From: a virus
Virus record (IMG/VR): IMGVR_UViG_3300050821_003974
Coordinates: 1 to 43,362 of that record
Reading direction: 5' to 3' (one strand)
Length of the DNA stretch: 43,362 bases
Translations under genes and position numbers: made by a program
Notes under the pieces: generated by a model
Seen by the model: the letters and a program-made list of their open reading frames with translations, nothing else
Told to the model about the DNA's origin: nothing
The model's database searches: none
In this document: positions 1,441 through 43,362 of the stretch, in pieces
Numbering within the stretch: the stretch's first letter is position 1
How the letters are laid out: each line of letters starts with the position of its first letter

Positions 1441-3403
1441 CCCCCGCGAGGAAGTGATTCTGCGGCTGGGGCGGAACAAGCGGCTCGCGCATGCCGCGCT
1501 GTTCGGCCACCGGCACCCGAACGCCACCCCCGACCTGCACTACCGGATCATAGACCTCTGGCACTCGCCCCTGCCCAAGGTGGAGGTGATGGCGTTCCGC
1601 GGCGCCGGCAAGTCGACGCTGTCGGAGGAGGGCATCATCGTCGAGGCGTGTCTTCGGCAGTTCAAGAACGGGATCATCCTCGGCTCCAGCTACGACCGCT
1701 CCTGCGAGCGCCTGGCGTCGATCAAGCACGAGTTCGAGACCAACCCGTTCATCGAGGAGCTGTTCGGCGACCTCGTGGGGGCTACATGGAACGTCGGCAA
1801 GATCATCCTGACCAACGGCGTGGTGATCCAGGCCTTCGGCCGCGGGATGTCGCTGCGCGGCTCCAAGCACCATGACCAGCGCCCGGATCGCGCGTTTGCG
1901 GATGACCTTGAGGAGCAGGAGGACGTCGAGACGCCCGAAGCCCGCCTGAAGACGCTGAAGTGGTTCATGCAGGTGGTGATGCCGGCGCTTTCGCCGGATG
2001 CCAAGATACGCGTCGCGGCGACGCCGCTCGACAAGGAGGCGCTGTCGATGCAGCTCGCCAAGGACAAGGGATGGGTCACGGAGACCTTCCCGATCGAGTT
2101 CGTCGACGAGCAGGGCGAGCGGCAAGCGACCTGGCCGGATCGGTACCCGCTGGAGTGGATCGACAAAACCAAGGATGACTTCGAGCGGCTCGGGCTCGCG
2201 ACCGAGTACAAGCAGGAGTTCATGTGCGAGGCCGAAGATCCCGCGACCAAGACCTTCACCGCGGACCTGTTTCGAATTGAGCCAGAGGTGCGGACCTGGC
2301 AGGCGACGTTCGCCTTCTTCGATCCGGCCCGCTCGGTGAAGGCCACCTCCTCCACCACAGGCTGGGTAGTTTGGAGTTGGGTTAACAACAGACTAATCGT
2401 GTGGGATGGTGGTGGAGGAGTCTGGAAACCGGACGAGATCATCAATCAAATCTTTGTGATAGACGAGCAGTACTCGCCGGTCGAGATCGGCGTGGAGCGG
2501 GATGGTCTGGAGGAGTTTTTGCTTCAGCCGCTGCGGCAGGAGCAGTCACGGCGCAACCTCGTGGTCCCGATTCGGGCGATGAAGGCCCCTGTTGGCAAGT
2601 TTGCGTTCATTCGTGCGCTGCAACCGTTCTTCAAAGCCCGCGAAGTGGTATTCGCAAAACACATGCCTGAGCTTCAGGCTCAACTACTTTCGTTTCCGAG
2701 TGGACGCATAGACGCGCCGAATGCACTGGCATACGCTCTCAAGATGCGGCCGGGGGGACCTGTCTACGAGGACTTCAACATAGTTAACATCTTTGAGGAC
2801 CTCTTGATGGCCCCGCGGACCCCTGCGTGGCTAGCTGTCAACGCTAATAATAGCTGGACGAGTGGAGTCCTGGCACAAGTAGTTGAGGGAGCGTTGCATG
2901 TCGTCGCAGATTGGGTTCGAGAAGGTGATCCAGGTCAGGTGCTCGCGTCTATTGTGGCAAACGCTGGGCTGGAGATCGGCCGAACACCCCTGCGAGTTGT
3001 CGCTGGGCCATCTCACTTCACTGGTCACGACACCGTGGGCCTACGAGCGGCGGCCGCTAAAGTTCCAGTTGGCCTGCGAACAGGCGCCGATCTCGCAACC
3101 GGCCAAGCCGAACTCCGCGAGCTGCTGAAAAGGACTTCGCGCGGCCAGCCCTGCCTGCGGGTGTCCACCAACGCACGGTGGACACTCAACGCCTTTTCGG
3201 GGGGCTACTGCCGGGACGTGCTGCGCACGGGCGAGCTCTCGGAGTTCACCAAGACCGGCCCCCACAAGGTCCTCATGGAGGGACTGGAGGCGTTCGCAGG
3301 ACTACTCCGGGGAGGAGTGGCCGCGGATGATGACAGCGAGCGTCGATACGACTATGATGCCACCGGGCGCCGGTACTTGTCGGCGCGCGGGAGCGCGAGC
3401 TAG
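1433..3403 (+). CDS. Large terminase subunit, with an extra nuclease-like module
   Basis: This 656-residue ATP-driven DNA-packaging motor works on the procapsid portal. The ATPase holds Walker A FRGAGKST (55-62) and Walker B RAFADDLE (153-160). The RNase H-like nuclease follows with Asp297 (FFDPAR), the Glu355/Asp357 region (GVERDG) and Asp427 (RIDAPNALAY), giving the usual acidic cluster of T7 gp19-type enzymes. Residues ~464-600 then resemble the nuclease module of another terminase lineage (WLAVNANNS, VVADW, TSRGQPCLRVS, FSGGY), but its first Asp and the DPA-type motif are replaced (AVNA, VVAGPS). The protein is therefore longer than the usual 550-590 residues. It starts inside the KTSC gene and its TAG overlaps the portal GTG. 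No clear small terminase was found. Confidence 0.93.
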   Translation: MSDPREEVILRLGRNKRLAHAALFGHRHPNATPDLHYRIIDLWHSPLPKVEVMAFRGAGKSTLSEEGIIVEACLRQFKNGIILGSSYDRSCERLASIKHEFETNPFIEELFGDLVGATWNVGKIILTNGVVIQAFGRGMSLRGSKHHDQRPDRAFADDLEEQEDVETPEARLKTLKWFMQVVMPALSPDAKIRVAATPLDKEALSMQLAKDKGWVTETFPIEFVDEQGERQATWPDRYPLEWIDKTKDDFERLGLATEYKQEFMCEAEDPATKTFTADLFRIEPEVRTWQATFAFFDPARSVKATSSTTGWVVWSWVNNRLIVWDGGGGVWKPDEIINQIFVIDEQYSPVEIGVERDGLEEFLLQPLRQEQSRRNLVVPIRAMKAPVGKFAFIRALQPFFKAREVVFAKHMPELQAQLLSFPSGRIDAPNALAYALKMRPGGPVYEDFNIVNIFEDLLMAPRTPAWLAVNANNSWTSGVLAQVVEGALHVVADWVREGDPGQVLASIVANAGLEIGRTPLRVVAGPSHFTGHDTVGLRAAAAKVPVGLRTGADLATGQAELRELLKRTSRGQPCLRVSTNARWTLNAFSGGYCRDVLRTGELSEFTKTGPHKVLMEGLEAFAGLLRGGVAADDDSERRYDYDATGRRYLSARGSAS

Positions 3404-5868: not shown

Positions 5869-7595
5869 AGAAGATCCTCGCCCTCATCTTCGCGCTACTT
5901 GCGACGCCCGTAGCTGCGCAGACCATCCCCTCGGGTCTGTTTGGCTCGATCAACTACTGGGGTGTCGGCGGCTTGTCGCAGGTGCTCAACCCCGGCCTCG
6001 CCGGGCAGTGCCTGACGACGCAGGGCGTCGGCAGCGCACCCGTCTGGGTGAACTGCCAAGTTTCTTCGCTCGCGCTGCTGCCTCCGATCAACACCAACCA
6101 GTTCTATGGGAACGTCAGCGGGCAGTTTGCCCCGCCTGTTGGTGTGGACGTCAACACGATCCTGAACACGGTCGGGTATGACATCGCGCGCCCGCCCCCG
6201 GTCGAGGCGATCATCTACAAGAGCAATGTGGGGCCGCTGTTCAATTGGCAGGCGCTGCCACCGTCTACGCAAGGGTCGATCCTGACTTCAGGTGGCCCAA
6301 CGAATCCGCCGTTCTGGGCGACAAACGCAATTCAAGCTAATCTTAGCGGCATCTGCACCACAATCGGCGCGGTCCTCTATTTCGACACGCCCTCGCTGCA
6401 GTGGAAGTGTCTCGCGCCGGGAACGTCGGGGCAGCTCCTGCAGACCGGCGGCGTCGGGGTTAACCCCTCGTGGCTGACGGTCACACTCGCGACTCTGGGC
6501 GGCGTCCCCTCCACGCGAAATGTTAGCGCGAACTTGCCTCTCGGCGGCGGTGGAGCGCTCTCCGCTGACCTGACGCTGACGTGCGCGACCTGTGCGACGA
6601 CAACGACCGGCGGGCCGCTCTCGGCGACATCGCCTGTGACGATCAGCTCCGGTGGTGTCATCGCAGTTACCAGCAGCGCTCTTACCTCCAACAATGACAC
6701 CAATGTCACCATCACGCTCGGCGGTACGCCTGCAAGCGCCTTGTTGCAGCCCGCGTCCATCACGATGGGCTGGACGGGCACCTTGTCGATCGCGCGAGGC
6801 GGAACTGGCGCCGGGACGCAGACGACGGCATTCAACGCACTTGCCCCGACTCCGACCCGCGCTGGTGACGTTACGTATTGGAATGGCACAAATTACGTAA
6901 ATCTGGCAGGCAACAATTCCGGCACGCAAGTGCTGTCCGAGAATGCGAGCGGCGTGCCCGCTTGGACAACGACAGGCGCCGTTCCTGTCATTCACCAAGC
7001 TACCGCGACCTTCACCACATCCGCCTCGTCCACAACATCGACGGTTTATTCTTATCAATGCACGGCCGGCGGCGGCGGTTCTGGCGGTAGCGCAGTTGGC
7101 GCGTTTGCGTCTGGTGGCGGCGGTGCCGGGGAAACCCGTTTCGGCATCTTCAGCGGTGTTGCCGCGAGCGCGACCGTTACGATAACCACCGGAACCGGAG
7201 GCACCGCTGGCGCATCCGGCGCAACTGCTGGCGGCACTGGAAATGCGAGTTCTATCGCTGCTACGGGGATAACCACGATCACCGCGAATGGCGGCGGCGG
7301 CGGCGGCGTTGGCGGCGCGTTAAGCGGGGCGGGACCGGGCGGCTCTGGTGGCGCAGGCGGCACCTCTCTGCCCGGCGGCGGCGGCGGCGCAGGAGCAACA
7401 GTATCCGGCTCGTTTGCGCTATCGGGTTTGGGTGGCGCGTCATCTTGGGGAGGCGGCGGTGCATCAACGACAAATGGACCAGGCACAGCGGGCGCGGCTC
7501 CGGGAAGCGGTGCGGGAGGCTCCTCCGGCGTAAGTGGTGCCGTTGCGGGAGCGGTCGGCGCGAACGGTCTCTGCGTTGTGTCGTGGATTTTGTAG
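5865..7595 (+). CDS. Glycine-rich tail fibre/adhesin with signal peptide
   Basis: The ATG at 5865 overlaps the preceding stop. An earlier in-frame ATG at 5847 would place six residues before the signal sequence and is rejected. The 576-residue protein opens with MKKILALIFALLATPVAAQ, a Sec-type signal peptide ending in a good AQ cleavage site. The middle carries the fibre motif SIARGGTGAGTQTTAFNAL, common in tail fibres of alphaproteobacterial phages. From about residue 405 to the end it is dominated by polyglycine runs, like the polyglycine-helix receptor-binding tips of some phage adhesins, and ends in CVVSWIL. It is the likely host-recognition appendage. The signal peptide is unexpected for a virion protein. 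Confidence 0.78.
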   Translation: MKKILALIFALLATPVAAQTIPSGLFGSINYWGVGGLSQVLNPGLAGQCLTTQGVGSAPVWVNCQVSSLALLPPINTNQFYGNVSGQFAPPVGVDVNTILNTVGYDIARPPPVEAIIYKSNVGPLFNWQALPPSTQGSILTSGGPTNPPFWATNAIQANLSGICTTIGAVLYFDTPSLQWKCLAPGTSGQLLQTGGVGVNPSWLTVTLATLGGVPSTRNVSANLPLGGGGALSADLTLTCATCATTTTGGPLSATSPVTISSGGVIAVTSSALTSNNDTNVTITLGGTPASALLQPASITMGWTGTLSIARGGTGAGTQTTAFNALAPTPTRAGDVTYWNGTNYVNLAGNNSGTQVLSENASGVPAWTTTGAVPVIHQATATFTTSASSTTSTVYSYQCTAGGGGSGGSAVGAFASGGGGAGETRFGIFSGVAASATVTITTGTGGTAGASGATAGGTGNASSIAATGITTITANGGGGGGVGGALSGAGPGGSGGAGGTSLPGGGGGAGATVSGSFALSGLGGASSWGGGGASTTNGPGTAGAAPGSGAGGSSGVSGAVAGAVGANGLCVVSWIL

Positions 7596-11482: not shown

Positions 11483-12838
11483 GTGCCCACCAACGTCGCA
11501 GCCGGCTTTTCAGCCGATATCGAAGCCTACATTGCTGACGAAACCCTCCCTCTCGCGCGCCGCCAGCTGGTTGCTTACCAGTTCGGGGACCCGCTGACGC
11601 TCCCCAAAGGCCGCGGCACCACCTACACCGCGACCCGCTACAACCGCGTCCCCCTCCCCTTCGCACCGCTGTCGGAAGGCGTCCCGCCGATCGGCGAGAC
11701 CATGACGATCGGTCAGGTCAGCGCCACCGCCCAACAGTGGGGCGACAAGATCACGATCACCGACGTAGCCGAGCTCACCATCAAGCATCCGCTGGTCAGC
11801 AAGGCCAAGGAGCTTCTGGGCCTGCAGATCGGTGAAACGCTCGACCGCAACGTCTTCAACAACCTGATGGCGGGCACGCAGGTCAACTTCGTGAACACCC
11901 GCGGCTCGCGCGCCGCTCTCGTGGCCGGCGATGTGCTCAACCCCCACGAGGTCAACCGCATCGTAGGCACGCTCTTTACCCTCGGCGCACCGCGCTACAT
12001 GGGCGACGAGATGACCGACACCAAGATCAAGGCAGACGCCGGCGGCGCCAAGGCCTCCAGCAACCCGCGATCCATGCCGCACTACACGAGCATCCTGCAT
12101 CCCCTGGTCGTGCAGGACATGCGCGAGAACCCGACGGTCGTCACCGCATGGTCGTACAGCGACATCAACCGCCTGTACAACTACGAGCTCGGCGAATGGG
12201 GCGGGGTCCGGTTCTGCTTCTCCAACATGGTGCCGTCCTTCACGGGCTTCACCAACGCGGCGAACGGCACCACCTACACCCCCGGCACTGCCGGCGCACT
12301 GGCGACCAACGGCTACTTCATCGTCGTGACCGGTTCGGACACGCAGAACCAGTACGAGAGCCAGGTCTATGCCGTGTCGGCTTCGCAGGCGGTCACCGGC
12401 CCGAACGGCTCGGTCACGGTTCACACACCGACGACCGCCGGCTTCACCTACAACGTCTACATCGGCCTCACTGCCTCGCCGGCCAACCTCGGGCTCTCCA
12501 CCTCGGGTCCGACCACGGGTCCGCTTGCCGGTCAGGCGGTGCAGCTGCCGCCCAACTCGAACGTCGTGATCACCGGCATCGGCGCCGCGCAGACCCCGCC
12601 GGCCGCGCCGGCATCGGGCGTCACGGTGTATCCGAGCTTCTTCATCGGGCGCGGCGCCTACGGGCAGGTCTCGCTCGACGACGTGAAGATCACCATGCTG
12701 ATGGCGGCGGACAAGTCCGATCCGCTCAACCAGCTGCGGGTCGTGGGCTGGAAGGTCTACTACGGGACTCTGATCTCTAACCAGCTGTTCTTTGCCCGTA
12801 TTGAATCAACTTCCGCCTTCTCAGCCAGCTTCGGCTAA
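11483..12838 (+). CDS. Major capsid protein, N4-gp56 family
   Basis: This 451-residue HK97-fold coat protein starts at GTG 11483 after AGGAGAG. The N-terminal part shows the family pattern: RYNRVPLPFAPLSEGVPP, VSATAQQWGDKITITDVAEL, and later YTSILHPLVVQDMREN with LGEWGGVRF. The C-terminal end (FFIGRGAYGQVSLDD, SDPLNQLRVVGWKVYYG) is equally typical. Between ~255 and ~372 lies an extra Ser/Thr/Gly-rich domain containing AGFTYNVYIGLTA, which looks like an Ig/FN3-like insertion probably exposed on the capsid surface. The gene's last 18 bases overlap the antisense HNH gene. Confidence 0.9.
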   Translation: MPTNVAAGFSADIEAYIADETLPLARRQLVAYQFGDPLTLPKGRGTTYTATRYNRVPLPFAPLSEGVPPIGETMTIGQVSATAQQWGDKITITDVAELTIKHPLVSKAKELLGLQIGETLDRNVFNNLMAGTQVNFVNTRGSRAALVAGDVLNPHEVNRIVGTLFTLGAPRYMGDEMTDTKIKADAGGAKASSNPRSMPHYTSILHPLVVQDMRENPTVVTAWSYSDINRLYNYELGEWGGVRFCFSNMVPSFTGFTNAANGTTYTPGTAGALATNGYFIVVTGSDTQNQYESQVYAVSASQAVTGPNGSVTVHTPTTAGFTYNVYIGLTASPANLGLSTSGPTTGPLAGQAVQLPPNSNVVITGIGAAQTPPAAPASGVTVYPSFFIGRGAYGQVSLDDVKITMLMAADKSDPLNQLRVVGWKVYYGTLISNQLFFARIESTSAFSASFG

Positions 12839-25094: not shown

Positions 25095-25272
25095 AGTCAT
25101 CGCCATGCAGCTGACCTGCTCGCGCTGTGGCCGCACGGTGAAAAACGATCTTCCCCGTCCGCAGATGCCGACGCAGGTCGAATTTCTCAAGCACCTGCGC
25201 GACGCGGGGTGGAGCATTGCCGAGGTTCCCAACTCCAAACAGATGTGCCTGAAGTGCGCCTCCTCCTCGTAG
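25084..25272 (+). CDS. Zinc-ribbon small protein
   Basis: This 62-residue protein starts at ATG 25084 after AAGGAG at 7 bases. It has a treble-clef or ribbon-like pair of motifs, CSRCG near the N-terminus and CLKC near the C-terminus, able to bind one zinc. It overlaps the preceding gene by 11 bases and the PurD-like gene by about 28, which suggests coupled translation. Its role is unknown; perhaps it is an accessory of the ligase that follows. Confidence 0.62.
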   Translation: MEDEVIAMQLTCSRCGRTVKNDLPRPQMPTQVEFLKHLRDAGWSIAEVPNSKQMCLKCASSS

Positions 25273-26570
25273 ACCCGCAGGGCGCCTCGCTAGACATCGC
25301 CATGCGGGCGCACCGCGACGGCCATGACGTGATGATGGTCATCCGCGACACGCCCAAGACCGCCAACATCGGCAAGGGCATCATCAAGGTCGTGGACGGC
25401 GTCGACATCCAACGCCACCTGAAATGGGCCGAGCTCGTCGTGCTCGCCGACAACACCCGCTGGCTGCAAGACGTGGACGCTTACCGCGCCGCCGGCGGGC
25501 TCGTGGTCGGTCCCTCCAAGGAGGCCGCGGACTGGGAGCTTGACCGCGAGATCGGCCAGCAGGTCATGCGAAAGGTCGGCATCACAGTGCCGCCCTACCG
25601 GACCTTCAGCGACTATGATTCGGCCATCGCCTTCGTCAAGAAGGAAGACCGCCGATTCGTCTCAAAGCCTTCGGGTGATGCTGATAAGGCCCTCTCCTAC
25701 GTCTCCAAGACCCCCGCCGACATGGTCTACATGCTGGAGCGATGGAAGAAGTTCGGCAAGCTGAAGGGCGACTTCATCTTGCAGGACTTCAAGGCCGGCA
25801 TCGAGATGGCCGTCGGCGGCTTTTGGGGCCCCGGCGGCTTCAACGAAGGCTGGTGCGAGAACTTCGAGTTCAAGAAGCTGATGAACAGCGACCTTGGCGT
25901 GGCCACGGGTGAGCAGGGCACAGTGCTGCGCTTCGTCCGGGTGTCAAAGCTCGCCCGGCGCCTGCTGACCCCCTTGCAGGAGGATCTGGAACGGATCGGC
26001 TACACCGGCTATATTGATGTAAACACGATCATCGACGAGAAGGGCAACATCTGGCCCCTTGAGTTCACGATGCGACCGGGCTGGCCGACGTTCAACATCC
26101 AGCAGGCGCTCAACGAAGGCGATACGGTCGAATGGCTGATGGATCTGGCGCAGGGCCGCGATTCCCGGAATTTCTCACTCGACCGCCTAGCGATCGGCGT
26201 CGTGCTGAGCATACCCGACTATCCCTACTCGCACATCACGAGGAAGGAAGTGACGGGGATTCCGATCTACGGGATCAAGCCGGGGATGTGGCAGCACCTC
26301 CACCCCTGCGAGATGATGCTGGAGGTCGCGGCCAACGACGTGGACGGAAAGATCCTCAACATGCCGATGCCCTGCACGGCGGGGGACTACGTGCTGGTGA
26401 TGACGGCGGTGGCGGACACCATCGCCCAGGCGAAGGAGACCGTCTATCGCCGCTTGAAGCGCTTGGTCGTGCCCAACTCCCCGATGTACCGGACAGACAT
26501 CGGGGACCGGTTGAGCAAGCAGTTGCCGCTCTTACAGAAGATGGGCTTCGCGTCAGGGATGACGTTTTAG
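25245..26570 (+). CDS. PurD-like ATP-grasp ligase
   Basis: This ~441-residue protein matches phosphoribosylamine-glycine ligase (PurD) in length and order. It has an N-terminal Rossmann-like strand (RLLLVDPQGASLDIAMRA), an ATP-grasp core (RFVSKPSGDADKAL, then FILQDFKAGIEMAVGGFW), the metal-ligand strand NIWPLEFTMRPGWP, and a C-terminal lobe ending GDYVLVMTAVADTIAQAKET and YRTDIG. Canonical PurD motifs are altered: no GGREHA, and the EFNxRFGDPE signature reads EFTMRPGWP. It may therefore use a different substrate. GTG 25245 or 25254 is the likely start; neither has a clear ribosome binding site. It is the last well-defined gene of the late operon. Nucleotide or DNA modification is possible but unproven. 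Confidence 0.72.
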   Translation: MPEVRLLLVDPQGASLDIAMRAHRDGHDVMMVIRDTPKTANIGKGIIKVVDGVDIQRHLKWAELVVLADNTRWLQDVDAYRAAGGLVVGPSKEAADWELDREIGQQVMRKVGITVPPYRTFSDYDSAIAFVKKEDRRFVSKPSGDADKALSYVSKTPADMVYMLERWKKFGKLKGDFILQDFKAGIEMAVGGFWGPGGFNEGWCENFEFKKLMNSDLGVATGEQGTVLRFVRVSKLARRLLTPLQEDLERIGYTGYIDVNTIIDEKGNIWPLEFTMRPGWPTFNIQQALNEGDTVEWLMDLAQGRDSRNFSLDRLAIGVVLSIPDYPYSHITRKEVTGIPIYGIKPGMWQHLHPCEMMLEVAANDVDGKILNMPMPCTAGDYVLVMTAVADTIAQAKETVYRRLKRLVVPNSPMYRTDIGDRLSKQLPLLQKMGFASGMTF

Positions 26571-26985: not shown

Positions 26986-28062
26986 CTAGGTTCGCCGCCT
27001 CCAATTGAGCAGCTTCTCCATGCCCATGGCGGCCATGAGCTCTTGCTCCGCTTCGCGGCTGTAGAGCTCCGCGTGCGCGATGCTGTCGTGCCCGAGCATG
27101 TCCATCAGCTGCCGGGTCGTCGCGCCGTGCTCTGCCAAGGCTTTGCCGAGCGTCTTGCGCAGGCCGTGCAGCGTGTATCCGGGCGGGATACCCGCTGCCC
27201 GCGCCCACCTCTGCATGCGCATACCCAGCGCCGCGGGGGAAAATGGCTTGCCCCATTGCGTCAGGACCACGAACTCGCGCTTGTCGAGACCCTCGACCGC
27301 GTCGAGCACCTCGCGCAGGTTCGGGTGGATCGGCAAGGTCAGGGACTTTAATGTTTTCTGCTGCACCATGCTGCTGGACGCAACCTTCAGATCCCTGGGC
27401 CGCACCTTGGTGACATCAGAGCGGCGATGGCCGAAGTAAAGCGCGAGCGCATAGACCAGCCGCGCCATTGAATCGATCGGCCAGTGGGCCTCGTATCTGT
27501 CCAGCATCTCGTCGGGCCATGCCTTCCAGCCCTTGTATTCAGGGCTGTACTTGATGCGGTACGTCGGATCGTTCTCCAGCCACTCCTGGTCGAGGGCTGT
27601 GCCGACCAGCTTGCGAATCACCCGCAGCAGGTGCGCCGCGGCATGCGGCGTGTCCGACCTGCGTGCGAGCAGCGCCTTGATGTGCCGGCGTTTGAGATCG
27701 GCGATGTCGACCTCTCCGAAAGCAAGCGCCTCACCCTCGACCACAGGCGTGGTCAGGAACCGTTCGATGATTCGTGTCTGCGCGGTCTTGATGTCAGGGC
27801 CGAGCGCCTGCCACTCCGGGTCTTCGGTCTTCAGGAGACGCCAGCAGGCCTTCAGGGATCGCGGCGATGCCGCGGTCGGCAACCGGTGGACAGTGGCGGG
27901 TTTGTGCTCCCTGCCCTCCACAGCCGCCATGTACGCGGCCTCGAACTCGGGGTGGCCGGGGGCGTGCGGGAGCTGGATGGTTTTCTTGCCGCGTCGAAAC
28001 CGCCAGCGGCGTTTGTCGTGGCGGTCAAGGTACGATCCGGCGCCGGGGTAATCGTCGGTCAT
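26986..28062 (-). CDS. int: Tyrosine-family integrase
   Basis: This 358-residue site-specific recombinase is needed for insertion and excision of the prophage. Residues ~60-170 form the SAM-like core-binding domain. The catalytic domain shows Arg213 or Arg214 in YFGHRRSDV, Lys236 region, His299-x-x-Arg302 in YTLHGLRKT, His325 in MLGHDS, and the nucleophile Tyr334 in HAELYSREA. The set is complete, so it is probably active. The ATG overlaps the stop of a small lipoprotein gene (ATGA). The 3' end lies next to a repeat-containing gap that may be attP. It is the last gene of the leftward unit. Confidence 0.93.
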   Translation of the reverse strand: MTDDYPGAGSYLDRHDKRRWRFRRGKKTIQLPHAPGHPEFEAAYMAAVEGREHKPATVHRLPTAASPRSLKACWRLLKTEDPEWQALGPDIKTAQTRIIERFLTTPVVEGEALAFGEVDIADLKRRHIKALLARRSDTPHAAAHLLRVIRKLVGTALDQEWLENDPTYRIKYSPEYKGWKAWPDEMLDRYEAHWPIDSMARLVYALALYFGHRRSDVTKVRPRDLKVASSSMVQQKTLKSLTLPIHPNLREVLDAVEGLDKREFVVLTQWGKPFSPAALGMRMQRWARAAGIPPGYTLHGLRKTLGKALAEHGATTRQLMDMLGHDSIAHAELYSREAEQELMAAMGMEKLLNWRRRT

Positions 28063-28778: not shown

Positions 28779-29326
28779 CTCTGCATCTCCTTCTCACATG
28801 GTTGCGCGGATGAACGCCGCCGCCGGCCGGAGGTCGATGGCATTGCCGAGGGCGCGCAGCTTAGATGGTCCGCACCCGCGCTCGCGGCCTCGACAGGGAT
28901 TGCCCCCACGGCGTAGCCCATGGCTTCCAGGTCACCTCGCACAAGTCGGAGCCATTCAGCAGCGCTCGCAACCTGCTCTCCATAGACCTTTGCAGGGCGG
29001 CGCTGCTCGATGAGATATTGCCAGTACGGCCAGAGGTGCCGCTCGTCAGCAAACCCGCCTTGCTTGCCTGCGAGGGAGAAAGGCTGGCAAGGACAGCTTC
29101 CCGTCCAAACTGCTCGATGATCCGGCCAACCCGCGAGACGTAGGGCTCCACTCCACCCGCCGAGACCAGCGAAGAAGTGGCACTGCGTGTAGCCGTCCAG
29201 ATCGGCAGGTCTAACGTCGGCAATTGACCGGGTGTCAACATCGCCATCTGCGATAAGCCCTTCCTGAATGAGATTGCGAAGCCACTGCGCCGCGTAGGGA
29301 TCGATCTCGTTGTAGTAGGCGGTCAG
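28775..29326 (-). pseudogene. Decayed C5-cytosine DNA methyltransferase
   Basis: The frame starts at a CTG (29326) overlapping the primase stop, 8 bases after AAGGAG, and reads TAYYNEIDPYAAQWLRNLI. Motif I (FFAGLGGWSGALRLAGW), catalytic motif IV (GSCPCQPFSLAGK) and the motif VI region (VYGEQVAS) are present. After GYAVGAIPVEAASAGAD the homology stops. The rest of the catalytic domain and the target-recognition domain (~200 residues, motif VIII on) are missing. The family C-terminus, LRALGNAID then AAAFIRATM, is present but in a different frame, ending at 28794. A deletion plus frameshift therefore removed the middle. As it stands a 183-residue inactive protein would be made. Confidence 0.8.
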
Positions 29327-32325
29327 CGCTGCATCTCCTTGATCCGCTCTGCGCGGCTTTTGTTCGGTGGATCGGGCAGCGCCTCCTCCAGCGAAGCGAC
29401 GACACCCGACACCAGCGGGTTGGCCATGTTGATGGTGATGCTTGGCGTCTGGCCGGAAGCCAGATCCGTGCCGGCGCCGAGCGTGACCTTGCGAACCTCG
29501 CCGAGCACGACGCCCTGCTTCTTCAGCGTGTCGAAGAAGTTGCGGGTGTTGACACCTGACTTCACCAGCCAGCGCTTCAGCGCCCCCTCGGACAGGAACA
29601 GTCGCTTGTTCTCGACCTCGTAGCGCACCAGCAGCTGGCGCGACGGAGCGCGCAAGATGGCCGAGCGCTGGCCATGCTTGAACTCGCAATTGACGATCAG
29701 CGTGTCGAGGTAGAACTCCGACAGCGCCGCGGCCAGCGCGGAAGATGCATCGCTCGGAGCGGCCCCGCGGATCGAGCCCGCGCCTTCGGACACATAGTCG
29801 ATCAGCCATTTGATGATGCGGTCCATCGAGAACTCGATGAGCCCCATCCCCTCCACGATCTTGCCGGCCGCGATGATCGACACCAGGAGCCGCACCCAGA
29901 ACCGATGCTTCTCCTCCAGATTTGCCGCCTTGCGGATCTCGGACGACCACAGCGGGATGTTGGAGCGTATCCACTCCACGATCTCGGGCTGCACCAGCTT
30001 CTTGATGTAGGCATCGCCTGCGAAGCCGTGGTTGAAGTTCAGCTCGCGGCGGATCTCCTCGAAGTCTTCCTTCTGGACGTGCGGCGGCAGCTCCGTGGTG
30101 AACTCAAGGATGCGCGCGGCCGGCGCATCCGAGGTGTTCATGTTTGAGAGGATGTCGACGAGCGAGGTGTTCGAGGCCGTGAGCAGGATGGTCTGCCATT
30201 CCGATTTGTTGATCTTCAGTCCGCCTTCCGCGGTGCCCCGGTCCTTGTCGGTGCCGTTGGTGAAGGTGAGGACGAACTCGCGAATGAGTTCAGGATCGCG
30301 CTGGTGCAGCTCGTCGAACGTACAGGGGAGGTTTCCGAGCACTCCTAGCTTCAGCCCCTTGGCAACGCGCGTGTCGGTCTCGTCAAGTTTTAGGCCCTTG
30401 TGCTGCCCCCAGATTGAAGCTGCTGCTTCGAGCGCCGTAGTTTTTCCCGATGCCGTGCGATCTGAAACAAAAGAAACGATAGCACCGCCTTCTCCCTCCG
30501 CGTGGAATCGCATGAGAGGAGCCGCAAAGCCGCATAGTACTGCGAGGGATTGATGCTCAAGACCTGCAGCAAAGAGCTTGTTAGCAGCCTTCTGCCATCG
30601 TTCGAGAGATGCGCCTTTTTTGCTTTGAACGGAAAGATATTGGGCGCGGTGTTCGAGGGTTGGCGACCCCGTGGCGGGCAAGACTGACGTGGGGGTGTAG
30701 AGCCGCTTGCCGACGAGGAAGGATGTCTCGCCGTCTTTCCACCCGAACTGGTCATAGCGCTTCTCCACATCATTCTCCCGGTGCCAAAGGTCGACGGCGC
30801 CGCGCACGTATTTGCGCCAGAGCTCGCCGTCGTGGATGGTCACGCCCCTTTCGGCGAGCTCCGTCGTCGCGTCACGGCCAACCGCTTGCCGCGCGGTGAC
30901 GACGATGTCGCGCCATTCCGAGCGGGCTTTCTTTTCGCGGAAGACGAGACCGTAGCGGCCTTCGTCGATTTCGGCGGTCTGGATCGCTTTGAGGTAGATC
31001 GGGTACTCGGAGACGAGCTCGTAGCTGATCCCGCCATTTTTGGCGCCGGTTCCATGGTGAAGTCGACCTTGGGCATCGTAGACGAAGTCGGCGGGCGGGG
31101 TTGGGAGCTGTACTGCCCCGTGCTGTACTGATAGTAGAAAATTAGCGTGTTGAGCTTTTTCCGCAGCGAATGGATCTGCTCCTGCTGCTCGGTCATGCGT
31201 GTCATCAGTGCGCGCACTAGCGCTGTCTCTCCCGAGCTGGATGGGAGAGGTGATCCGTCCTGAGTGACGGCATCCGACACATCCGGCTCGGTCGAGGCTT
31301 GCGAACTTGGCGCAGGTGGTAGGTCCGAAGCCTGCGAGCCGCTCAAGCTTTTCGTCAACAGCTGCGTGGTAGTCTCTAGCAGACCATGAATGCGCGACAG
31401 CCACGCCGTCTGCGCAATGGGCAAGAACTCCGAGGGCTGCATGCCAGAGAGGCTCGCTAACTCCAGCTGGGTCTTCCCGTAGGCGATCAATCTGTCGGCA
31501 GCTGCGTGCAACTGCTTCTGCGCTTGCGGGTCGGTCGTCATAGAGTCCGCCGAGGAGGTCGGCTCCGATGGTGTTTCTTGCAGGGTGTAGAGGTTGCACC
31601 AGCGGTGATGGCCCATCGGTGCTCGGCAGTACGTGCAGGCTGTGTACTTGTCCACCGAGTAGCCTCTCGAAGAGTTGGAGTGGATAGGGTCCGACCAGCG
31701 GACCAGCGACAACTTCCCTCAGTCCGTTCTTGCGGTGGTGGGTGCCAGGCGTTCGGAGTACCGACGATAAATCCGCAGTGCGAGTAGTGTCGACGTGAAG
31801 CCCGTGGTGATCAAAAAGTTTAGCGAGCCCGGTCGCATATCTTCGCCACGTCTCAGGACCCAGTGGCTCGCCCAGCGGCCAATAGAGATGCAGACCGTTA
31901 CCCGAGCCAACATATATTGGCGCTGGGAGACCACACACTCGGACGAATGCTGCAACATGCTCGGCCCCAGCCAGCTGTGTCGGATAAGGCTTGCCTTCTC
32001 CGCAGTCGACATCTGCCCAAAGCGCCTGGGCGTGGCATACGTTGTAGTGGGTCCTTCCCAGATGGCGCTGGGCTCTTGGTGCCCCTCTGGGGTCGTGGGC
32101 GTTAACCCGAAATGTCGAGCAGGCATGGTAGACGGTCCTTCCGGCGGCGTCGTTTTGTAGAAGGAAATACGCAAGCTCCTCATCGGTGGCGAAGAAGGTG
32201 TTGAACTTCTTTGCACCGTTGACGACATAGGCAATCCTAAACCCTTCGCGCGGCAGTACTCGCTTTAGGAACTCGACCGCTGCCTGCAACCTGTCGGAGG
32301 GCGCGGATTCGTGCTGGCCGTTCAT
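29323..32325 (-). CDS. AEP-type primase fused to a DUF927-like helicase
   Basis: This 1000-residue protein probably both makes primers and unwinds DNA at the phage fork. The N-terminal AEP-like primase/polymerase domain shows the metal pair WADVD (Asp105, Asp107) and the His motif GSGNGLHLYW (His146), then RTPGTHHRKNG. A Cys-rich PriCT/zinc-like region follows (TCAKFASLDRAGCVGCRH, ~337-354). The C-terminal P-loop ATPase has Walker A SDRTASGKTT (621-630) and Walker B CTFDELHQ (Asp671, Glu672), in a DUF927-type context. Long overlapping frames exist on the same strand within it, but the conserved motifs define this one. The start overlaps the HTH gene by 89 bases. Confidence 0.88.
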   Translation of the reverse strand: MNGQHESAPSDRLQAAVEFLKRVLPREGFRIAYVVNGAKKFNTFFATDEELAYFLLQNDAAGRTVYHACSTFRVNAHDPRGAPRAQRHLGRTHYNVCHAQALWADVDCGEGKPYPTQLAGAEHVAAFVRVCGLPAPIYVGSGNGLHLYWPLGEPLGPETWRRYATGLAKLFDHHGLHVDTTRTADLSSVLRTPGTHHRKNGLREVVAGPLVGPYPLQLFERLLGGQVHSLHVLPSTDGPSPLVQPLHPARNTIGADLLGGLYDDRPASAEAVARSCRQIDRLREDPAGVSEPLWHAALGVLAHCADGVAVAHSWSARDYHAAVDEKLERLAGFGPTTCAKFASLDRAGCVGCRHSGRITSPIQLGRDSASARTDDTHDRAAGADPFAAEKAQHANFLLSVQHGAVQLPTPPADFVYDAQGRLHHGTGAKNGGISYELVSEYPIYLKAIQTAEIDEGRYGLVFREKKARSEWRDIVVTARQAVGRDATTELAERGVTIHDGELWRKYVRGAVDLWHRENDVEKRYDQFGWKDGETSFLVGKRLYTPTSVLPATGSPTLEHRAQYLSVQSKKGASLERWQKAANKLFAAGLEHQSLAVLCGFAAPLMRFHAEGEGGAIVSFVSDRTASGKTTALEAAASIWGQHKGLKLDETDTRVAKGLKLGVLGNLPCTFDELHQRDPELIREFVLTFTNGTDKDRGTAEGGLKINKSEWQTILLTASNTSLVDILSNMNTSDAPAARILEFTTELPPHVQKEDFEEIRRELNFNHGFAGDAYIKKLVQPEIVEWIRSNIPLWSSEIRKAANLEEKHRFWVRLLVSIIAAGKIVEGMGLIEFSMDRIIKWLIDYVSEGAGSIRGAAPSDASSALAAALSEFYLDTLIVNCEFKHGQRSAILRAPSRQLLVRYEVENKRLFLSEGALKRWLVKSGVNTRNFFDTLKKQGVVLGEVRKVTLGAGTDLASGQTPSITINMANPLVSGVVASLEEALPDPPNKSRAERIKEMQR

Positions 32326-37598: not shown

Positions 37599-37768
37599 TT
37601 GTCCACCTCAAACTCATAGACGCGCCAATAAACGCGCGGCGACATGTAGGGCTTGCGCGACGGTTCTTCGGCCTGAAGCGCCTTGACGTAGTCGTCGGCG
37701 AGCTTCGCCGTCGAAAAAACAGCCGCGGGGAAGTCGTTGCCCATGACGACGTGGACACTACTTTTCAT
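37595..37768 (-). CDS. Small hypothetical protein
   Basis: This 57-residue ORF starts at ATG 37768 inside the end of the DNA polymerase gene, and its TGA overlaps the nuclease GTG. The composition is that of a folded protein (VFSTAKLADDYVKALQAEEP; PRVYWRVYEFEVDK). The overlaps on both sides support real translation. The function is unknown. Confidence 0.62.
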   Translation of the reverse strand: MKSSVHVVMGNDFPAAVFSTAKLADDYVKALQAEEPSRKPYMSPRVYWRVYEFEVDK

Positions 37769-39656
37769 AGCGAGTACTCACTCCCCCCTCGGCGGCCAGT
37801 GGCAGGTTCGGCATCCACAGTGGTGGACGACACATCTCAGTACTCATAATATCGTATGCTTGTTGTCCCATGTCAAGTGGTACAACTCCGACAAGTTCGT
37901 CATGAGTAGTGGTGGCGATCTTTATCCCCACCTTTACAATCCGGTTCGCGGCCTGGCTCACCACCATGCGCGCCATGTACTGCACGAGGTTCTCCACAAG
38001 TTTTGCACCATACATCTTGGTGGGGAACCCGCGGCGGGTCTTTACACGCCAGCCCGGCTCCAGCCATGCGGGATCTTCCGACGTCGGATTGTGCCACTCA
38101 AGGCTGTCGTAGATCAGCTCCGCGCAGCCGGGCAGACTGATCCGGCGCCTGCCGGTCGCCTCGTCACAGCGGACCTGGAGCGGCCCCCAGTCGAACGAGA
38201 CGAAGTTCAGCATGCGCGCGAGCGCTAGTTCTGCTTCTTTCCAGAGTTGGACGACACGAGGGTGAGTGTCACGATAGATGTGCTTCCATCGTCCTGCTGT
38301 CTCAATGTCAATCTGAACGGGCGGCCCGTAAGTTCCGAGGCGCGCGGTCTTCTGGATCGTAGCGTCTCCAGCGCCGTATCCACAACTGAGCTCCAGCTGT
38401 TTACCCGTACCACGTTCTGCCTTGTCTTCCTTAGTAATCGCTCGACCATAGGCCTGGCTGGCAATGCCGATGTAGGGGTCGGCGCCCGTTCGGAATCGTT
38501 CAATGACATCGTCCTGTCCTGCGAACTCGTTGAGGATGCGGCACTCGATCTGCGAGGAGTCGACGACGACTAGGGCCGCCCCCGGTGGAGACTTAATAGC
38601 TTTGCGAAGCTTGCCACCTCGTCGGAGGTTCTGCCAGTTAAAACCACCTCCACCCGACCATCGGGTTGTATGCGCACCACAATACCGGAGATACACGGGG
38701 CATCGGCCCCGCGAAGCCATCCCGCCAACACGTTCAGCGCCCGCTTGGTCGGTAGTGCTTTTGATCCCCAGCCGGGCTGCAGCAAGGGCTTGTATTCGAG
38801 GGTCAACATGTTCTTTTAGCTCCTCCATGAACTCGTCCTTGGCCGCGAATGCAGGGATCGGACCGTTTTTCCCGGCCTTGTACTCGACCTCCACCCCCTC
38901 GGCTTCGAGCATGGCGATGAAGGTCTCGTTGGAACCGATGTCCTTGGCACTGGCGCCCAGTTCGGCCAGGAGATCGCGCCGGCGCAGCTCCTCCTCGCTC
39001 CAGATCTCGCCCAGCTGCTCGATGTCCGCCTCCAGCACGGGCTCGCTGAACATCCTGATCGTGGTGTCAATGACATGGTATTCGTCTTGCGGGAAGCGCT
39101 CGGACAGCCGGCGAAAAATGTCGAGCGTCAGCGCACAATCATGAAGGCAACCAGCGCCAAGACGCCCAAGCAGGCCCCGGTCGAGATCAGAAAAACGCTT
39201 TCCACGAAATTCGTTGTAGGGGACCGTTTTGCCCTCAAGTCCGAAGTGCTTCGCCAGATTGTCGAGACCGACAGACAGGTGAACGCCAAGCACAAGGCGG
39301 GCCATGGACAGCGTGTCGTACCAGAACCTCGGCTTGATCCCGTAGTGGTGGGAGAGAATCAGTCCGTCGAACTGCGCGTGGTGCGCGAGAACTGCGGTGT
39401 TGTGCCACGGTAAACCTTGCAGGAACTCCTTTACCTGTGGTCCAGGTATCCAGAGCGGCTTGTCGCCAAACTCTTCAATCTGCTCGCAGTTGTCGCGACC
39501 TACATACCGCCCAACGGGAAAGGTTGGATCTAGGCTGATCAGCCCAACGCCTAGCGTCTCGAACCGGGGGTCACGGATGTATGCCTCCGTGGTCATCTTC
39601 TTCAATGTGTAGTCATCGGAGAAAAAAGTTTCGAAGTCGAGCACCAGGAGGTTCAT
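37758..39656 (-). CDS. Family A DNA polymerase
   Basis: This 632-residue replicative polymerase starts at ATG 39656, overlapping the stop of a small membrane-protein gene. An in-frame start at 39806 is rejected because it lies in that gene. The 3'-5' exonuclease has Exo I LDFETF (Asp7, Glu9), Exo II AHHAQFD (91-97) and Exo III HDCALTLD (172-179). The polymerase has motif A VVVDSSQIECRI (Asp366), motif B R415-x3-K419-x3-L423-x3-Y427G, and motif C HDE (585-587). Leu423 sits where E. coli Pol I has Phe762. It lacks a 5' nuclease domain, as is usual in phages. Confidence 0.94.
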   Translation of the reverse strand: MNLLVLDFETFFSDDYTLKKMTTEAYIRDPRFETLGVGLISLDPTFPVGRYVGRDNCEQIEEFGDKPLWIPGPQVKEFLQGLPWHNTAVLAHHAQFDGLILSHHYGIKPRFWYDTLSMARLVLGVHLSVGLDNLAKHFGLEGKTVPYNEFRGKRFSDLDRGLLGRLGAGCLHDCALTLDIFRRLSERFPQDEYHVIDTTIRMFSEPVLEADIEQLGEIWSEEELRRRDLLAELGASAKDIGSNETFIAMLEAEGVEVEYKAGKNGPIPAFAAKDEFMEELKEHVDPRIQALAAARLGIKSTTDQAGAERVGGMASRGRCPVYLRYCGAHTTRWSGGGGFNWQNLRRGGKLRKAIKSPPGAALVVVDSSQIECRILNEFAGQDDVIERFRTGADPYIGIASQAYGRAITKEDKAERGTGKQLELSCGYGAGDATIQKTARLGTYGPPVQIDIETAGRWKHIYRDTHPRVVQLWKEAELALARMLNFVSFDWGPLQVRCDEATGRRRISLPGCAELIYDSLEWHNPTSEDPAWLEPGWRVKTRRGFPTKMYGAKLVENLVQYMARMVVSQAANRIVKVGIKIATTTHDELVGVVPLDMGQQAYDIMSTEMCRPPLWMPNLPLAAEGGVSTRYEK

Positions 39657-39772
39657 CGCAGCCCCGCGTAGGCCGCGAGGGCAAGCAGCCCCAAGCCAAA
39701 AACGAACAGCGGAACGCCTGCGATAAGGTCGACCAGCACGAAAAAAATGGTCGCGAGATCGGAGATGGCCAT
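39653..39772 (-). CDS. Tiny membrane protein coupled to DNA polymerase
   Basis: This 39-residue ORF starts at ATG 39772, overlapping the previous stop by one base (TAATG), and ends overlapping the polymerase ATG. Nearly all of it is hydrophobic (IFFVLVDLIAGVPLFVFGLG, then LLALAAYAG), enough for one or two spans. Placement suggests translational coupling into the polymerase. It might tether or regulate replication at the membrane, which is speculative. Confidence 0.55.
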   Translation of the reverse strand: MAISDLATIFFVLVDLIAGVPLFVFGLGLLALAAYAGLR

Positions 39773-40092
39773 TACGCGCCACCGACTGAGTCATAAGAGG
39801 AAACAACGTCGAGCGCCTTAAGCCTCTTCGCCTCTTGGACCGCCCGTATGTGCGGATTGCACGGCTTGTCGTCTAATGGGCAATTACCGCAGTGATCAGC
39901 GCAGTCTCGGCATCGCGGGAGAATGCCATTTAGGATATCCCAAAGCTCGCGCAGTTCTGTCGCGCTGTCCCTGAGCATCCGATAGGCTTCATTCAACTGA
40001 AATTGGAGGTTCTGTTCGGCGGGGTCTGTCGATGTCACAGCTTTTGACGCACTAGTCGACCACTGGCACGTCTTCGGCGTCGTCGCGTTCAT
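39772..40092 (-). CDS. Cys-rich small protein, zinc-binding candidate
   Basis: This 106-residue protein starts at ATG 40092, with AAGGAG about 10 bases upstream. A helical middle (LNEAYRMLRDSATELRELWD) is followed by a Cys/His cluster (PRCRDCADHCGNCPLDDKPC), which could hold one or two metal ions. The start lies inside the acidic gene at 40052-40153. The function is unknown. Confidence 0.6.
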   Translation of the reverse strand: MNATTPKTCQWSTSASKAVTSTDPAEQNLQFQLNEAYRMLRDSATELRELWDILNGILPRCRDCADHCGNCPLDDKPCNPHIRAVQEAKRLKALDVVSSYDSVGGA

Positions 40093-40948: not shown

Positions 40949-41109
40949 CCAGTGTCCCGATCCGGCACCACTACCTCCAGCTCGCCACTGGTCAGGTACC
41001 AGTGGTCCCCATTATAGAGGAGGTCCACTGGTGGTCCGTCATGGAGCAGTCTGTACCATGACGGGCACTGGGCTTGCCAGCGCAAATTCGAGAGTATAAC
41101 AACTTTCAT
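40894..41109 (-). CDS. Small hypothetical protein with duplicated tail
   Basis: This 71-residue protein starts at ATG 41109, overlapping the stop of the HTH gene (ATGA). It has a small folded-looking part (MKVVILSNLRWQAQCPSWYR; LLYNGDHWYLTSGELEVVVP) and the tail MMLARQLNRQGAGSGA shared with 40414-40587. The function is unknown. Confidence 0.62.
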   Translation of the reverse strand: MKVVILSNLRWQAQCPSWYRLLHDGPPVDLLYNGDHWYLTSGELEVVVPDRDTGAMMLARQLNRQGAGSGA

Positions 41110-41381
41110 GACTCGTCCTCCTCGTTGTCCCATAAGTGCTTGTCGTCCTGCATAGGCGCGGGTAGCGCCTTTACATTCAGCTGAAGCGTTCGCCCGGCCG
41201 GCCCCCGCGGCTTGAGCGCAAGGAGCCTGTTCGCGATCTCGTCGGGGATGCCCTGCTTGAGCTTGCCCCGCTCCATCTTGTTGATGGTCACGCGGGAGAG
41301 GCCGATCGCGTCGGCCAGCTCTTGCTGCGAGAGGCCTAGGGCTTTCCTGACCTGCTTGAAGACTTTGGGGTCGATGCTCAT
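41106..41381 (-). CDS. XRE-family HTH regulator
   Basis: This 91-residue protein has a clear Cro/C1-type helix-turn-helix: FKQVRKALGLSQQELADAIG followed by LSRVTINKMERGK. The C-terminal ~40 residues are short, with no peptidase domain, so it is Cro-like rather than a LexA/CI-type repressor. The start overlaps the stop of the tiny gene upstream. As an early gene in a temperate phage it is a good candidate for a lysis-lysogeny regulator; targets are unknown. Confidence 0.83.
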   Translation of the reverse strand: MSIDPKVFKQVRKALGLSQQELADAIGLSRVTINKMERGKLKQGIPDEIANRLLALKPRGPAGRTLQLNVKALPAPMQDDKHLWDNEEDES

Positions 41382-41494
41382 TTCGCATCCAGCCGCGGAT
41401 ATGTGCGCGACTTCGGCGAGGCCTCATAAAAGGCAAAAGCCTTCATGAGGTCGTCGAACCAGAAATCTTGCAGCAGCGTTGATACGAGCCACAT
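41378..41494 (-). CDS. Tiny hypothetical protein
   Basis: This 38-residue ORF starts at ATG 41494 after an excellent AGGAGG and its stop overlaps the HTH start (ATGA). It is aromatic-rich (MWLVSTLLQDFWFDDLMKAF). The Shine-Dalgarno and coupling support translation. It may be a leader peptide or an anti-host peptide; no function can be assigned. Confidence 0.55.
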   Translation of the reverse strand: MWLVSTLLQDFWFDDLMKAFAFYEASPKSRTYPRLDAK

Positions 41495-41531
41495 TGTCTT
41501 GCCTCCTCTGGGTTGCCTCTAACGCCCTAAG

Positions 41532-41555
41532 CCGGGTAGCCTTGCGGCGCCCGGC
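41532..41555. other. GC-rich hairpin between small early genes
   Basis: GCCGGG (41532-41537... on the + strand from 41531) and CCCGGC (41550-41555) can pair within the 83-base gap between 41495 and 41577. No T tract is seen on either side. It may be a weak or factor-assisted terminator, or an mRNA-processing structure of the leftward operon. Confidence 0.3.
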
Positions 41556-41577
41556 ATAAGGCTTGATGGGGTGGGGA

Positions 41578-41778
41578 CTAGACGGTTTTCTCGTCGATTC
41601 GGGTGCGGCCGGGGGCGCCCTTGCGGTATCCGTGCGTTCCGTCGCGCTTGGCGTCGTGATACGACGTAATGTCCGCTTGCGCTTCGGCGCGCGTCGTCTT
41701 TGGTGTTCCGAGCTTTGTCCAGTAGATCGTATGCTCGCAGCCGCGTACCTCAACGAATGCTTGGTAGAACGTGATCAT
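41578..41778 (-). CDS. Small early protein
   Basis: This 66-residue protein starts at ATG 41778 after GAGGAGG. It appears as a small alpha/beta fold (ITFYQAFVEVRGCEHTIYWT, then TTRAEAQADITSYHDAK). The pattern of a Cys and several aromatics recalls small early proteins of other phages, without a firm family. It is two bases downstream of the preceding gene. Confidence 0.62.
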   Translation of the reverse strand: MITFYQAFVEVRGCEHTIYWTKLGTPKTTRAEAQADITSYHDAKRDGTHGYRKGAPGRTRIDEKTV

Positions 41779-41780
41779 GT

Positions 41781-41924
41781 CTAGTCCTCCTCGTTTGCTA
41801 GTTGTCTGTCCAACTCCGCGCGGGCGCACTCCGCGCAGAGGATCTCATCCGGTGCTACCGGGTGGTCGCACCACTCGCAGCGGTAGCGGCGCTGCAGAAA
41901 GCGGCTGTGGGAGTCCCAGGTCAT
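41781..41924 (-). CDS. Small zinc-finger protein
   Basis: This 47-residue protein starts at ATG 41924, overlapping the previous stop (ATGA). Two CxxC motifs (CEWC and CAEC) separated by 14 residues suit a single zinc. The remainder is a short charged helix (ARAELDRQLANEED). It resembles the DksA/TraR-type or ribbon fingers found in early phage regions. RNA polymerase or nucleic-acid binding is possible but unproven. Confidence 0.65.
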   Translation of the reverse strand: MTWDSHSRFLQRRYRCEWCDHPVAPDEILCAECARAELDRQLANEED

Positions 41925-42388
41925 GACTTCACCATCGCGGCGTAGATTCGCTCGATCACGCCATCGCTCATGATGCCTTGGCCAGTGGTGGTGCGCGCCC
42001 ACACGTTCATGCCGGCGAAATCTGTGTCGACCTTTTCGCCCTGCTCGATCAGCTTCTCCGCGAACCATGTCGAGACTGACCAGTGCTCGCAGACTTCGCG
42101 GTCGTGGGGTTCGATGTCGTTAGCTTCGCAAAGATCGATCCAGCCCCTCACATCGGCTTGCGCGCCGTCTTTGTGCTGGAAGGCGTCGAAGCCAAACGCC
42201 ACTTCCTTTTCCGTGGCCTTGCGCCAGCCAGCCTGCAGCGCCGCCTCTTCATGGTCGGCAACGGGGCATGCGAGCTCGAAGGCGCCACTGGCCAGCGTCG
42301 AGACGAGGCTGGACAGGCAGCAATTGACCTCGCGGTCGACGCGCACGACGCAGATAAAAAGCTTGGTTCGGAGTGCTGCGGAAATCAT
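41921..42388 (-). CDS. Conserved early phage protein
   Basis: This 155-residue protein starts at ATG 42388 after GGGAGG at ideal spacing. The C-terminal half carries CEHWSVSTWFAEKLIEQGEK, then FAGMNVWARTTTGQGIMSDG, a block I have seen in small early proteins of many temperate phages, of unknown biochemical role. The N-terminus (MISAALRTKLFICVVRVD) is hydrophobic-basic but probably not a signal. It directly follows the palindrome-rich region at 42411-42496, so it may be under its control. Confidence 0.7.
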   Translation of the reverse strand: MISAALRTKLFICVVRVDREVNCCLSSLVSTLASGAFELACPVADHEEAALQAGWRKATEKEVAFGFDAFQHKDGAQADVRGWIDLCEANDIEPHDREVCEHWSVSTWFAEKLIEQGEKVDTDFAGMNVWARTTTGQGIMSDGVIERIYAAMVKS

Positions 42389-42410
42389 GTAGTCCTCCCA
42401 GTGACCACAA

Positions 42411-42496
42411 TGTAAAGGACTACTAGTGAAATGTAAAGGGTACTAGTGCGAGAAAATGTAAAGTACTCGCACTAGTCCGATCACAATGCTGTGATC
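42411..42496. promoter_or_regulatory. Iteron and palindrome cluster
   Basis: Three TGTAAAG copies (42411, 42432, 42457) alternate with TACTAGTG words (42421, 42441). ACTAGTGCGAG (42442-42452) and CTCGCACTAGT (42466-42476) are a perfect 11-base inverted repeat around the third copy. GATCACA/TGTGATC (42479-42485 with 42490-42496) forms a second hairpin reaching the HTH stop codon. The density implies binding of a dimeric regulator or an initiator. CTTTACA, the complement, also contains a -35-like TTTACA for leftward promoters. Confidence 0.6.
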
Positions 42497-42761
42497 ATTT
42501 GTTCCACCACACCCGCTTTGTGGCGCCGAGGCCCGCGCTGACATCGGCCTTGTACTCTGGTACGTATGGCTCGCCATAGATCGTGCAGAGCAGGTCATAG
42601 AGGTTTCGTGGCGTGCGCGTGTCGCCCTCCAGCCAGCTGTAGACCGATCGCCGGCTATAGCCGAGGCTTTCCGCCAGGTCGGCTTGGCCGAGGCCATGCC
42701 ACTGCATCCAGTCAAATAGCTCTTTAGGTGTGATCCGGTGGTGTCGTGGTGGCGCTACCAT
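42495..42761 (-). CDS. Cro-like HTH protein, first gene of the leftward unit
   Basis: This 88-residue protein starts at ATG 42761 after GGGAG. A helix-turn-helix covers ~10-45 (LFDWMQWHGLGQADLAESLG followed by SRRSVYSWLEGDTRTPRNLY). The small size without a second domain fits Cro-like regulators. It is the gene nearest the right-hand control region and is flanked by palindromes on both sides (42479-42496 and 42780-42800), a normal setting for autoregulation. It may control the early operon. Confidence 0.82.
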   Translation of the reverse strand: MVAPPRHHRITPKELFDWMQWHGLGQADLAESLGYSRRSVYSWLEGDTRTPRNLYDLLCTIYGEPYVPEYKADVSAGLGATKRVWWNK

Positions 42762-42779
42762 TGCAGTCTCCCGGGTTGT

Positions 42780-42800
42780 TGTGGTCGTACCAGTACCACA
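42780..42800. promoter_or_regulatory. Inverted repeat upstream of the HTH gene
   Basis: TGTGGT (42780-42785) and ACCACA (42795-42800) form a 6-base inverted repeat with 9 bases between, about 20 bases upstream of the HTH start. Further on, TGATGGGAAGT is directly repeated at 42811 and 42823. Both are reasonable operator candidates for the leftward promoter. Confidence 0.4.
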
Positions 42801-43050
42801 GCACTCGGACTGATGGGAAGTCTGATGGGAAGTATTGTGAGAAGTTTTTATGTAAAGGAAACCTACCTACTAGATCAAAAACGATATTTGCCGCGCGTAA
42901 TCAATGGGTTGCTGCGCTGCACACCTCTAGTAGGATTGGCGAGGGCGCGATGGAGTGTGCTTCCCACAAAACTTCCCAACTAAGCCGAATGTAAAGGTGT
43001 AAAGGGGCGGCTAAAGTGGGAAGTATTTCGGGAAGCTCCCTACAAACGCC

Positions 43051-43110
43051 TTTTCTAAAAGATACTACTACTACCTACTCTTTACTAAATAAGATACATA
43101 ATGATTTCAA
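43051..43110. other. AT-rich block, possible unwinding element
   Basis: This 60-base block (TTTTCTAAAAGATACTACTA and on) is far more AT-rich than the rest of the genome and includes an ACT trinucleotide run. It is flanked by TGTAAAG repeats. Strand opening at an origin or promoter melting would explain its composition; no direct evidence distinguishes them. Confidence 0.4.
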
Positions 43111-43362
43111 TGGGTTGGCGACATCTCCTCCTAGCTGGCCTTAGCGCCGCCATCCACAGCGGTAACGACATACTCTGAAACTACCTCGCGTCGCTACTCA
43201 GTTACCAATGGCCCCCCGCCCCCATGTAAAGTGTAAAGGATGTAAAGCTTAACTCGGGGAAAATCGGGGGGGGCCGACGGTGGTTTTGGGATTTTATGCC
43301 TCGCATCTCAAACCGCGCGCCATTTTCAAAAAGTCCCCTCCCCCTACTCCTACCCCAAGCAC

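Follow-up and report, generated by a model that had tools for sequence, protein, structure and literature searches.

Iteron plasmids carry directed repeats with a unit of ~17–22 bp beside AT-rich DNA and use initiators of the Rep_3/RepE type. The alpha protein of phage P4 combines primase and helicase in one protein and recognizes short iterons both at the origin and at a second, remote site. In SaPI, the iterons are recognized by the C-terminal domain of Rep (PMC7581432). The locus described here has points in common with these systems. As in SaPIbov1 (Rep) and SCCmec (Cch/Cch2), a homologous MCM-like helicase initiator with a C-terminal domain of the DNA-binding type is predicted, and multiple short candidate iterons lie beside AT-rich DNA, which in the clade of this phage forms a core between the sets. 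Unlike in SaPI/Cch, an AEP primase is joined to the helicase in a single protein, the phage encodes its own PolA, and the candidate origin, in the late/early intergenic region upstream of the leftward early genes, is separated from the initiator gene by ~10 kb instead of following it directly on the 3' side. Since the repeats do not adjoin that gene and their binding is putative, the region is not classed as a SaPI/Cch origin, even if it is like one. With P4 alpha, the protein shares the union of primase and helicase and the candidate iterons at two places, but the helicase and primase types differ and the second site is here the early promoter. Directed repeats adjoining AT-rich DNA are also found in iteron plasmids; in the window, however, the unit is only 7 bp, the spacing is irregular and no Rep_3/RepE-type Rep was identified. 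Finally, Cro/CI operator sets also have multiple sites around an early promoter and a small HTH protein within the operon. In contrast to those sets, the repeats are mainly direct and also flank an AT-rich core, and the usual operator position, before HTH1, is taken by another word, ACTTCCC.

The window, i.e., the whole stretch of DNA analyzed, is a phage record of 43,362 bases. Late genes, among them terminase (1433–3403) and the major head protein (11483–12838), run rightward. The early genes run leftward and encode PolA (37758–39806), a PD-(D/E)XK nuclease, an SNF2-type helicase and the DUF927 protein. Both record ends match adjoining sequence in relatives; hence, the contig probably broke at this point, and the repeats lie in the early/late intergenic region. 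Positions 1–20, at the record start, are a poly-C tract. A search with the primase-helicase gave 78 loci; terminase and PolA are also encoded by most of the longer records that were tested. Judged from these sequences, the phage is a member of a large group of uncultivated phages. No named phage gave a nucleotide match to the right half of the window. At 25209–26570 the window encodes a PurD-like ATP-grasp protein with GARS domains, which scored under the cut-off of TIGR00877. A XerC/D-type tyrosine recombinase at 26986–28062, located after the late genes and before the DUF927 gene, suggests, together with the HTH1 operators, a temperate phage.

In the 860 bp from 42401 to 43260, the heptamer TGTAAAG is present nine times on the + strand and never on the − strand (Table 1); 1500 Markov resamples gave a mean of 0.12 for the + strand and a maximum of two. 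The preliminary description had every start and the common orientation exactly right, and had proposed equal density elsewhere as a refutation: the other 42.5 kb hold five copies (one on the + strand, four on the −). Over the whole window and both strands, 14 copies compare with 1.5 expected, a count reached in 0 of 100 shuffles. Raw clustering is not unique to this word, as some GC-rich 7-mers such as GGCGGCG are equally clustered in the window. TGTAAAG is distinguished by how few copies are expected, by where they lie and by their conservation, and the cluster is real and conserved. The region contains 51% GC, against 56–67% in most of the window. It had been called mostly non-coding, rightly, though an 88-aa HTH gene (HTH1) splits the cluster between the third and the fourth copy. 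Starts are 21 and 25 bp apart in the first group, 8 bp in the pair at 42990/42998 and 7 and 9 bp in the last group, with the AT-rich block between these last two. Used as literature terms, CTTTACA and TGTAAAG gave no phage or iteron paper among the matches listed.

Table 1. Features of the control region and of related loci (window coordinates unless another record is named).
Feature	Position	Strand	Remarks
AEP primase fused to DUF927 helicase	29323–32325	−	Candidate initiator; sequence and predicted fold
XRE2	41106–41381	−	Small conserved HTH_3 protein; rival candidate binder
Promoter-like TTTACA-17-TACATT	42409–42437	−	Built from two repeats; 0.9 chance matches expected
Three TGTAAAG (42411, 42432, 42457)	42411–42463	+	Early-operon leader; includes a 21-bp pair
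Dyad GATCACAATGCTGTGATC	42479–42496		3' of HTH1 gene; conservation partial
HTH1	42495–42761	−	Variable HTH regulator
Lone TGTAAAG	42851–42857	+	~90 bp ahead of HTH1 start
Second CAACCCATTGAT element	42900–42912	−	
Right set of putative iterons, two TGTAAAG (42990, 42998)	42990–43004	+	
AT-rich core with AGTAGTAGTAT (early strand)	43053–43115		CCCATTGAAATC element at edge
Left set of putative iterons, three TGTAAAG (43225, 43232, 43241)	43225–43247	+	Adjoins block A
Block A, TAACTCGGGG...GGGATTTTATGCC	43250–43301		Conserved; beside left set
~Ten CCTTTACA copies	L207 4345–4670		On both sides of an AT-rich stretch; also in L198, L214, L222 and L226

The clade compared consists of the window, two phages of 43.9 kb each (L002 = G001 and L003 = G002; PolA ~80% identical to that of the window) and the fragments L017 and L018 (terminase 86–87% identical); L005 and L006 were too distant to be informative. 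All four relatives have TTTACA clusters in the same late/early intergenic place, with CTTTACA on the early strand. Relative to the AGTAGTAGTAT core, copies occur at −203 to −99 on the left and at +46 to +92 on the right, each side being occupied in four of five genomes; the pair CTTTACATNCTTTACAC is kept in the window, L002 and L003. Also conserved on the early strand are the HTH1 gene, a dyad past its stop and the AT-rich core itself, in which AGTAGTAGTAT and CATTGAAA-like elements are found; the gene content after HTH1 varies. Just ahead of the ribosome-binding site of the gene following HTH1, a TTTACA pair spaced by 21–22 bp overlaps the early-operon leader in all four genomes concerned (window, L002, L003 and L017). 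Fragment L017, which does not reach the initiator gene, retains these early-promoter copies and a single copy near the core. The repeats are direct in the window, some are inverted in L002, L003 and L017, and L018 has one perfect dyad, TATTTACATATGTAAATA. Each relative has a different HTH1 recognition helix but the same word, which indicates that the word is kept for another protein; HTH1 is an unlikely binder.

The initiator had been sought among the HTH proteins or in the primase-helicase, as no plasmid-type Rep was visible. Indeed, none was found among the early proteins searched (Pfam, PHROGs and NCBIfam; part of the small ORFs), and the primase-helicase fits the role, as opposed to the HTH protein at 42495; XRE2, at 41106, remains a live rival. 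The primase-helicase has 1000 aa, with the AEP primase at the N-terminus followed by the DUF927 helicase, and gives matches to the Cch1 model as well as, in the PDB, to the sequences of Cch and of a pathogenicity-island protein. Its structure model, built from 50 homologues (mean pLDDT 86), was matched by Foldseek to SCCmec Cch (E 4e-18) and SaPIbov1 Rep (E 1e-16) over ~600 columns, and also to an AEP PrimPol. By sequence and predicted fold, the protein is a homologue of the Cch/SaPIbov1-Rep-type initiators, and its C-terminus, judged from the secondary structure of the model, looks winged-helix-like. Segment 905–960 is 93–96% identical in L002 and L003 and averages 37% in the remainder of the family, where the TGTAAAG word is mostly absent. 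A clade-specific word would be expected if the C-terminal domain reads it.

The best-supported reading, and one that is somewhat favored on balance, is the iteron origin proposed at the outset: the repeats are taken as phage-origin iterons to which the primase-helicase binds, and the copies at the early promoter as autoregulatory. The following scheme for binding, origin activity, transfer to PolA and autoregulation is inferred. The AT-rich AGTAGTAGTAT block would be the origin core, flanked by the left and right sets, to which the primase-helicase would bind by its winged-helix-like C-terminal domain. It would then assemble as a helicase next to the core, melt it and prime DNA synthesis, which the phage PolA would take over. 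Some copies probably also control the first (early) genes: those at 42411–42463 overlap the leader and the probable promoter of the leftward early genes. As these include the initiator gene, a high level of initiator could turn them off through these copies.

The arrangement of the copies on both sides of the AT core supports an iteron origin, as do the excess of same-strand copies, the conservation of the word in four relatives with differing HTH1 helices, the similarity of the primase-helicase to Cch and SaPIbov1 Rep, the clade-specific identity of its segment 905–960 and the arrays that accompany primase-helicases in other phages (G046, L207 and L198), where XRE2 was not found. Against it count the ~10 kb to the initiator gene, dissimilar to SaPI, and L017, which has kept only the early-promoter copies beyond its single copy near the core. 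The preliminary description had proposed GC skew as a check on an origin; the skew of the window does not turn at the repeats and gives no support. In G029, a distant family member, TGTAAAG is mainly in tandem before the HTH1 gene, as an operator would be. There (L162+L161, early-orientation 2314–2400), the 22-bp repeats CTTGACATTGTAAAGCGATTTG directly precede that gene and join TTGACA to TGTAAAG.

An improbable but still serious alternative is that the repeats are half-sites of XRE2, a Cro-like protein of the early operon that would repress its own operon at the early promoter and, by intergenic binding, control divergent transcripts. XRE2 is found in the window, L002, L003 and L017, but not in the 11 more distant relatives searched, so within the clade it tracks the word as well as the initiator does. 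Its recognition helix, SRVT[IV]NK, is constant across the clade, the copies at the early promoter vary least, as expected for an autoregulated Cro-like protein, and the perfect dyad of L018 also suits XRE2 operators. However, XRE2 was not found in G046, G048 and the other records with dense CTTTACA arrays, and the window has mostly direct repeats, 7–9 bp apart around the AT-rich core, and not dyads. HTH1 proteins with helices similar to that of XRE2 do accompany TGTAAAG (SRQTIIN in G029) and TGTAACC (SRQAVIN in G020), but the argument is weak, because the HTH1 helix of G020 is also found in G031, whose top word is different. XRE2 and the primase-helicase could also share sites.

Block A can be written as TAACTCGGGGAAAATCGGGG..GGGATTTTATGCC or, on the early strand, as ATAAAATCCCAAAACC..CCCCGAGTTA, and is conserved in the clade. 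Its part CCCGAGTT is present in 19 of 29 family control regions and, with AGTAGTA and CCATTGA, recurs near the AT peak; the latter two are found there in many family members. Late promoter, packaging site and part of the origin are possible roles. A DNA pattern for block A matched only the two known relatives among viral contigs and nothing among genome contigs; hence, no host was identified. It is very unlikely that terminase binds the left set as part of a packaging site and cuts within block A. The set does adjoin this family-wide conserved block on the terminase side, but the word also occurs at the early promoter and past the AT core, block A is retained in L017 with no repeats next to it, and no small terminase subunit was identified.

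A single sigma70-like match is present in 41000–43362, the promoter-like element on the − strand. The least credible reading, also proposed at the outset, in which CTTTACA supplies repeated −35 elements of leftward early promoters for the host RNA polymerase, fails as an array since, although TTTACA agrees with TTGACA at five of six positions and one copy has TACATT after a 17-bp spacer, an acceptable −10 at 15–19 bp follows only this one of the nine window copies and two of ~35 in the clade, copies 7–9 bp apart are unable to serve one promoter each, and the second hexamer of the TTTACA pair lacks its final T in L002 and L017. From its sequence, the pair in the early leader is better seen as protein sites overlapping a promoter.

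The putative iterons of the clade have counterparts in other phages. When viral contigs were searched for CTTTACATNCTTTACAC, 51 matched; as the search demanded two copies, only copies beyond those count as evidence. Most contigs have little beyond the pair, while several have dense arrays. In L207 and L198, the CCTTTACA array is directly 3' of a VapE/BT4734/PriCT-2 primase-helicase gene, an arrangement that resembles an iteron origin and belongs to a separate phage lineage. Ten copies surround AT-rich DNA in L186/L218, a lineage in which G046 (56 kb) encodes a DUF927-AEP protein 26% identical to that of the window. A primase-helicase is thus encoded in the window and in two array lineages, one of the VapE and one of the DUF927 type. 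L219, with portal and terminase genes on the contig, has ~twelve copies around an AT-rich AGTAGTAGTAG stretch, and L185 has seven copies of a CTTTACA-type word; no initiator was seen in these two fragments.

A broader proposal, doubtful at present, is that the AEP–Cch/SaPI-Rep-type fusion of this phage family is its own iteron-binding initiator, that the origin of the clade lies at the switch between late and early genes, where the same iterons would set both the replication start and the early shut-off, and that CTTTACA is reused by initiators of the DUF927 and VapE types. If true, this reuse would point to a shared recognition rule, and such phages would be tied to the SaPI/SCCmec replication module. 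A repeat spotted by eye has here become a testable initiator–iteron pair. DUF927 helicases are present in many mobile elements; a phage that combines primase and helicase in one protein and has a compact candidate origin, plus the phages with the same heptamer, would offer a route to the DNA-recognition rule of this helicase group.

The HTH1 side of the core is, in many family members, occupied by an abundant word of their own, e.g., CGTATCA, GGCTTA or TGCTACA. The idea that the most abundant word of each member is its iteron was dropped, as many of these words sit on that side and look like HTH1 operators. Likewise, a degenerate family-wide iteron TGTNNAG, derived from the words of G029 and G034, was unsupported in genomes outside those used for its derivation (40 vs. 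31.8 expected, p = 0.09). In the window, ACTTCCC holds the HTH1-side place, so TTTACA is a second, additional word in the clade. ACTTCCC/GGGAAGT occurs within 42815–43036 (at ~42815, 42827, 42971 and 43018, plus variants), in the position of HTH1 operators. Other words are found at the same position in L002 (GGTCTA) and L017 (TTGCTACA), which resembles immunity-specific operators. In L003, an inverted repeat of ~30 bp (ATAAGACCGTACCCTGTTTTGAAATTATAG) surrounds three CTTTACA-type sites at 6315–6410.
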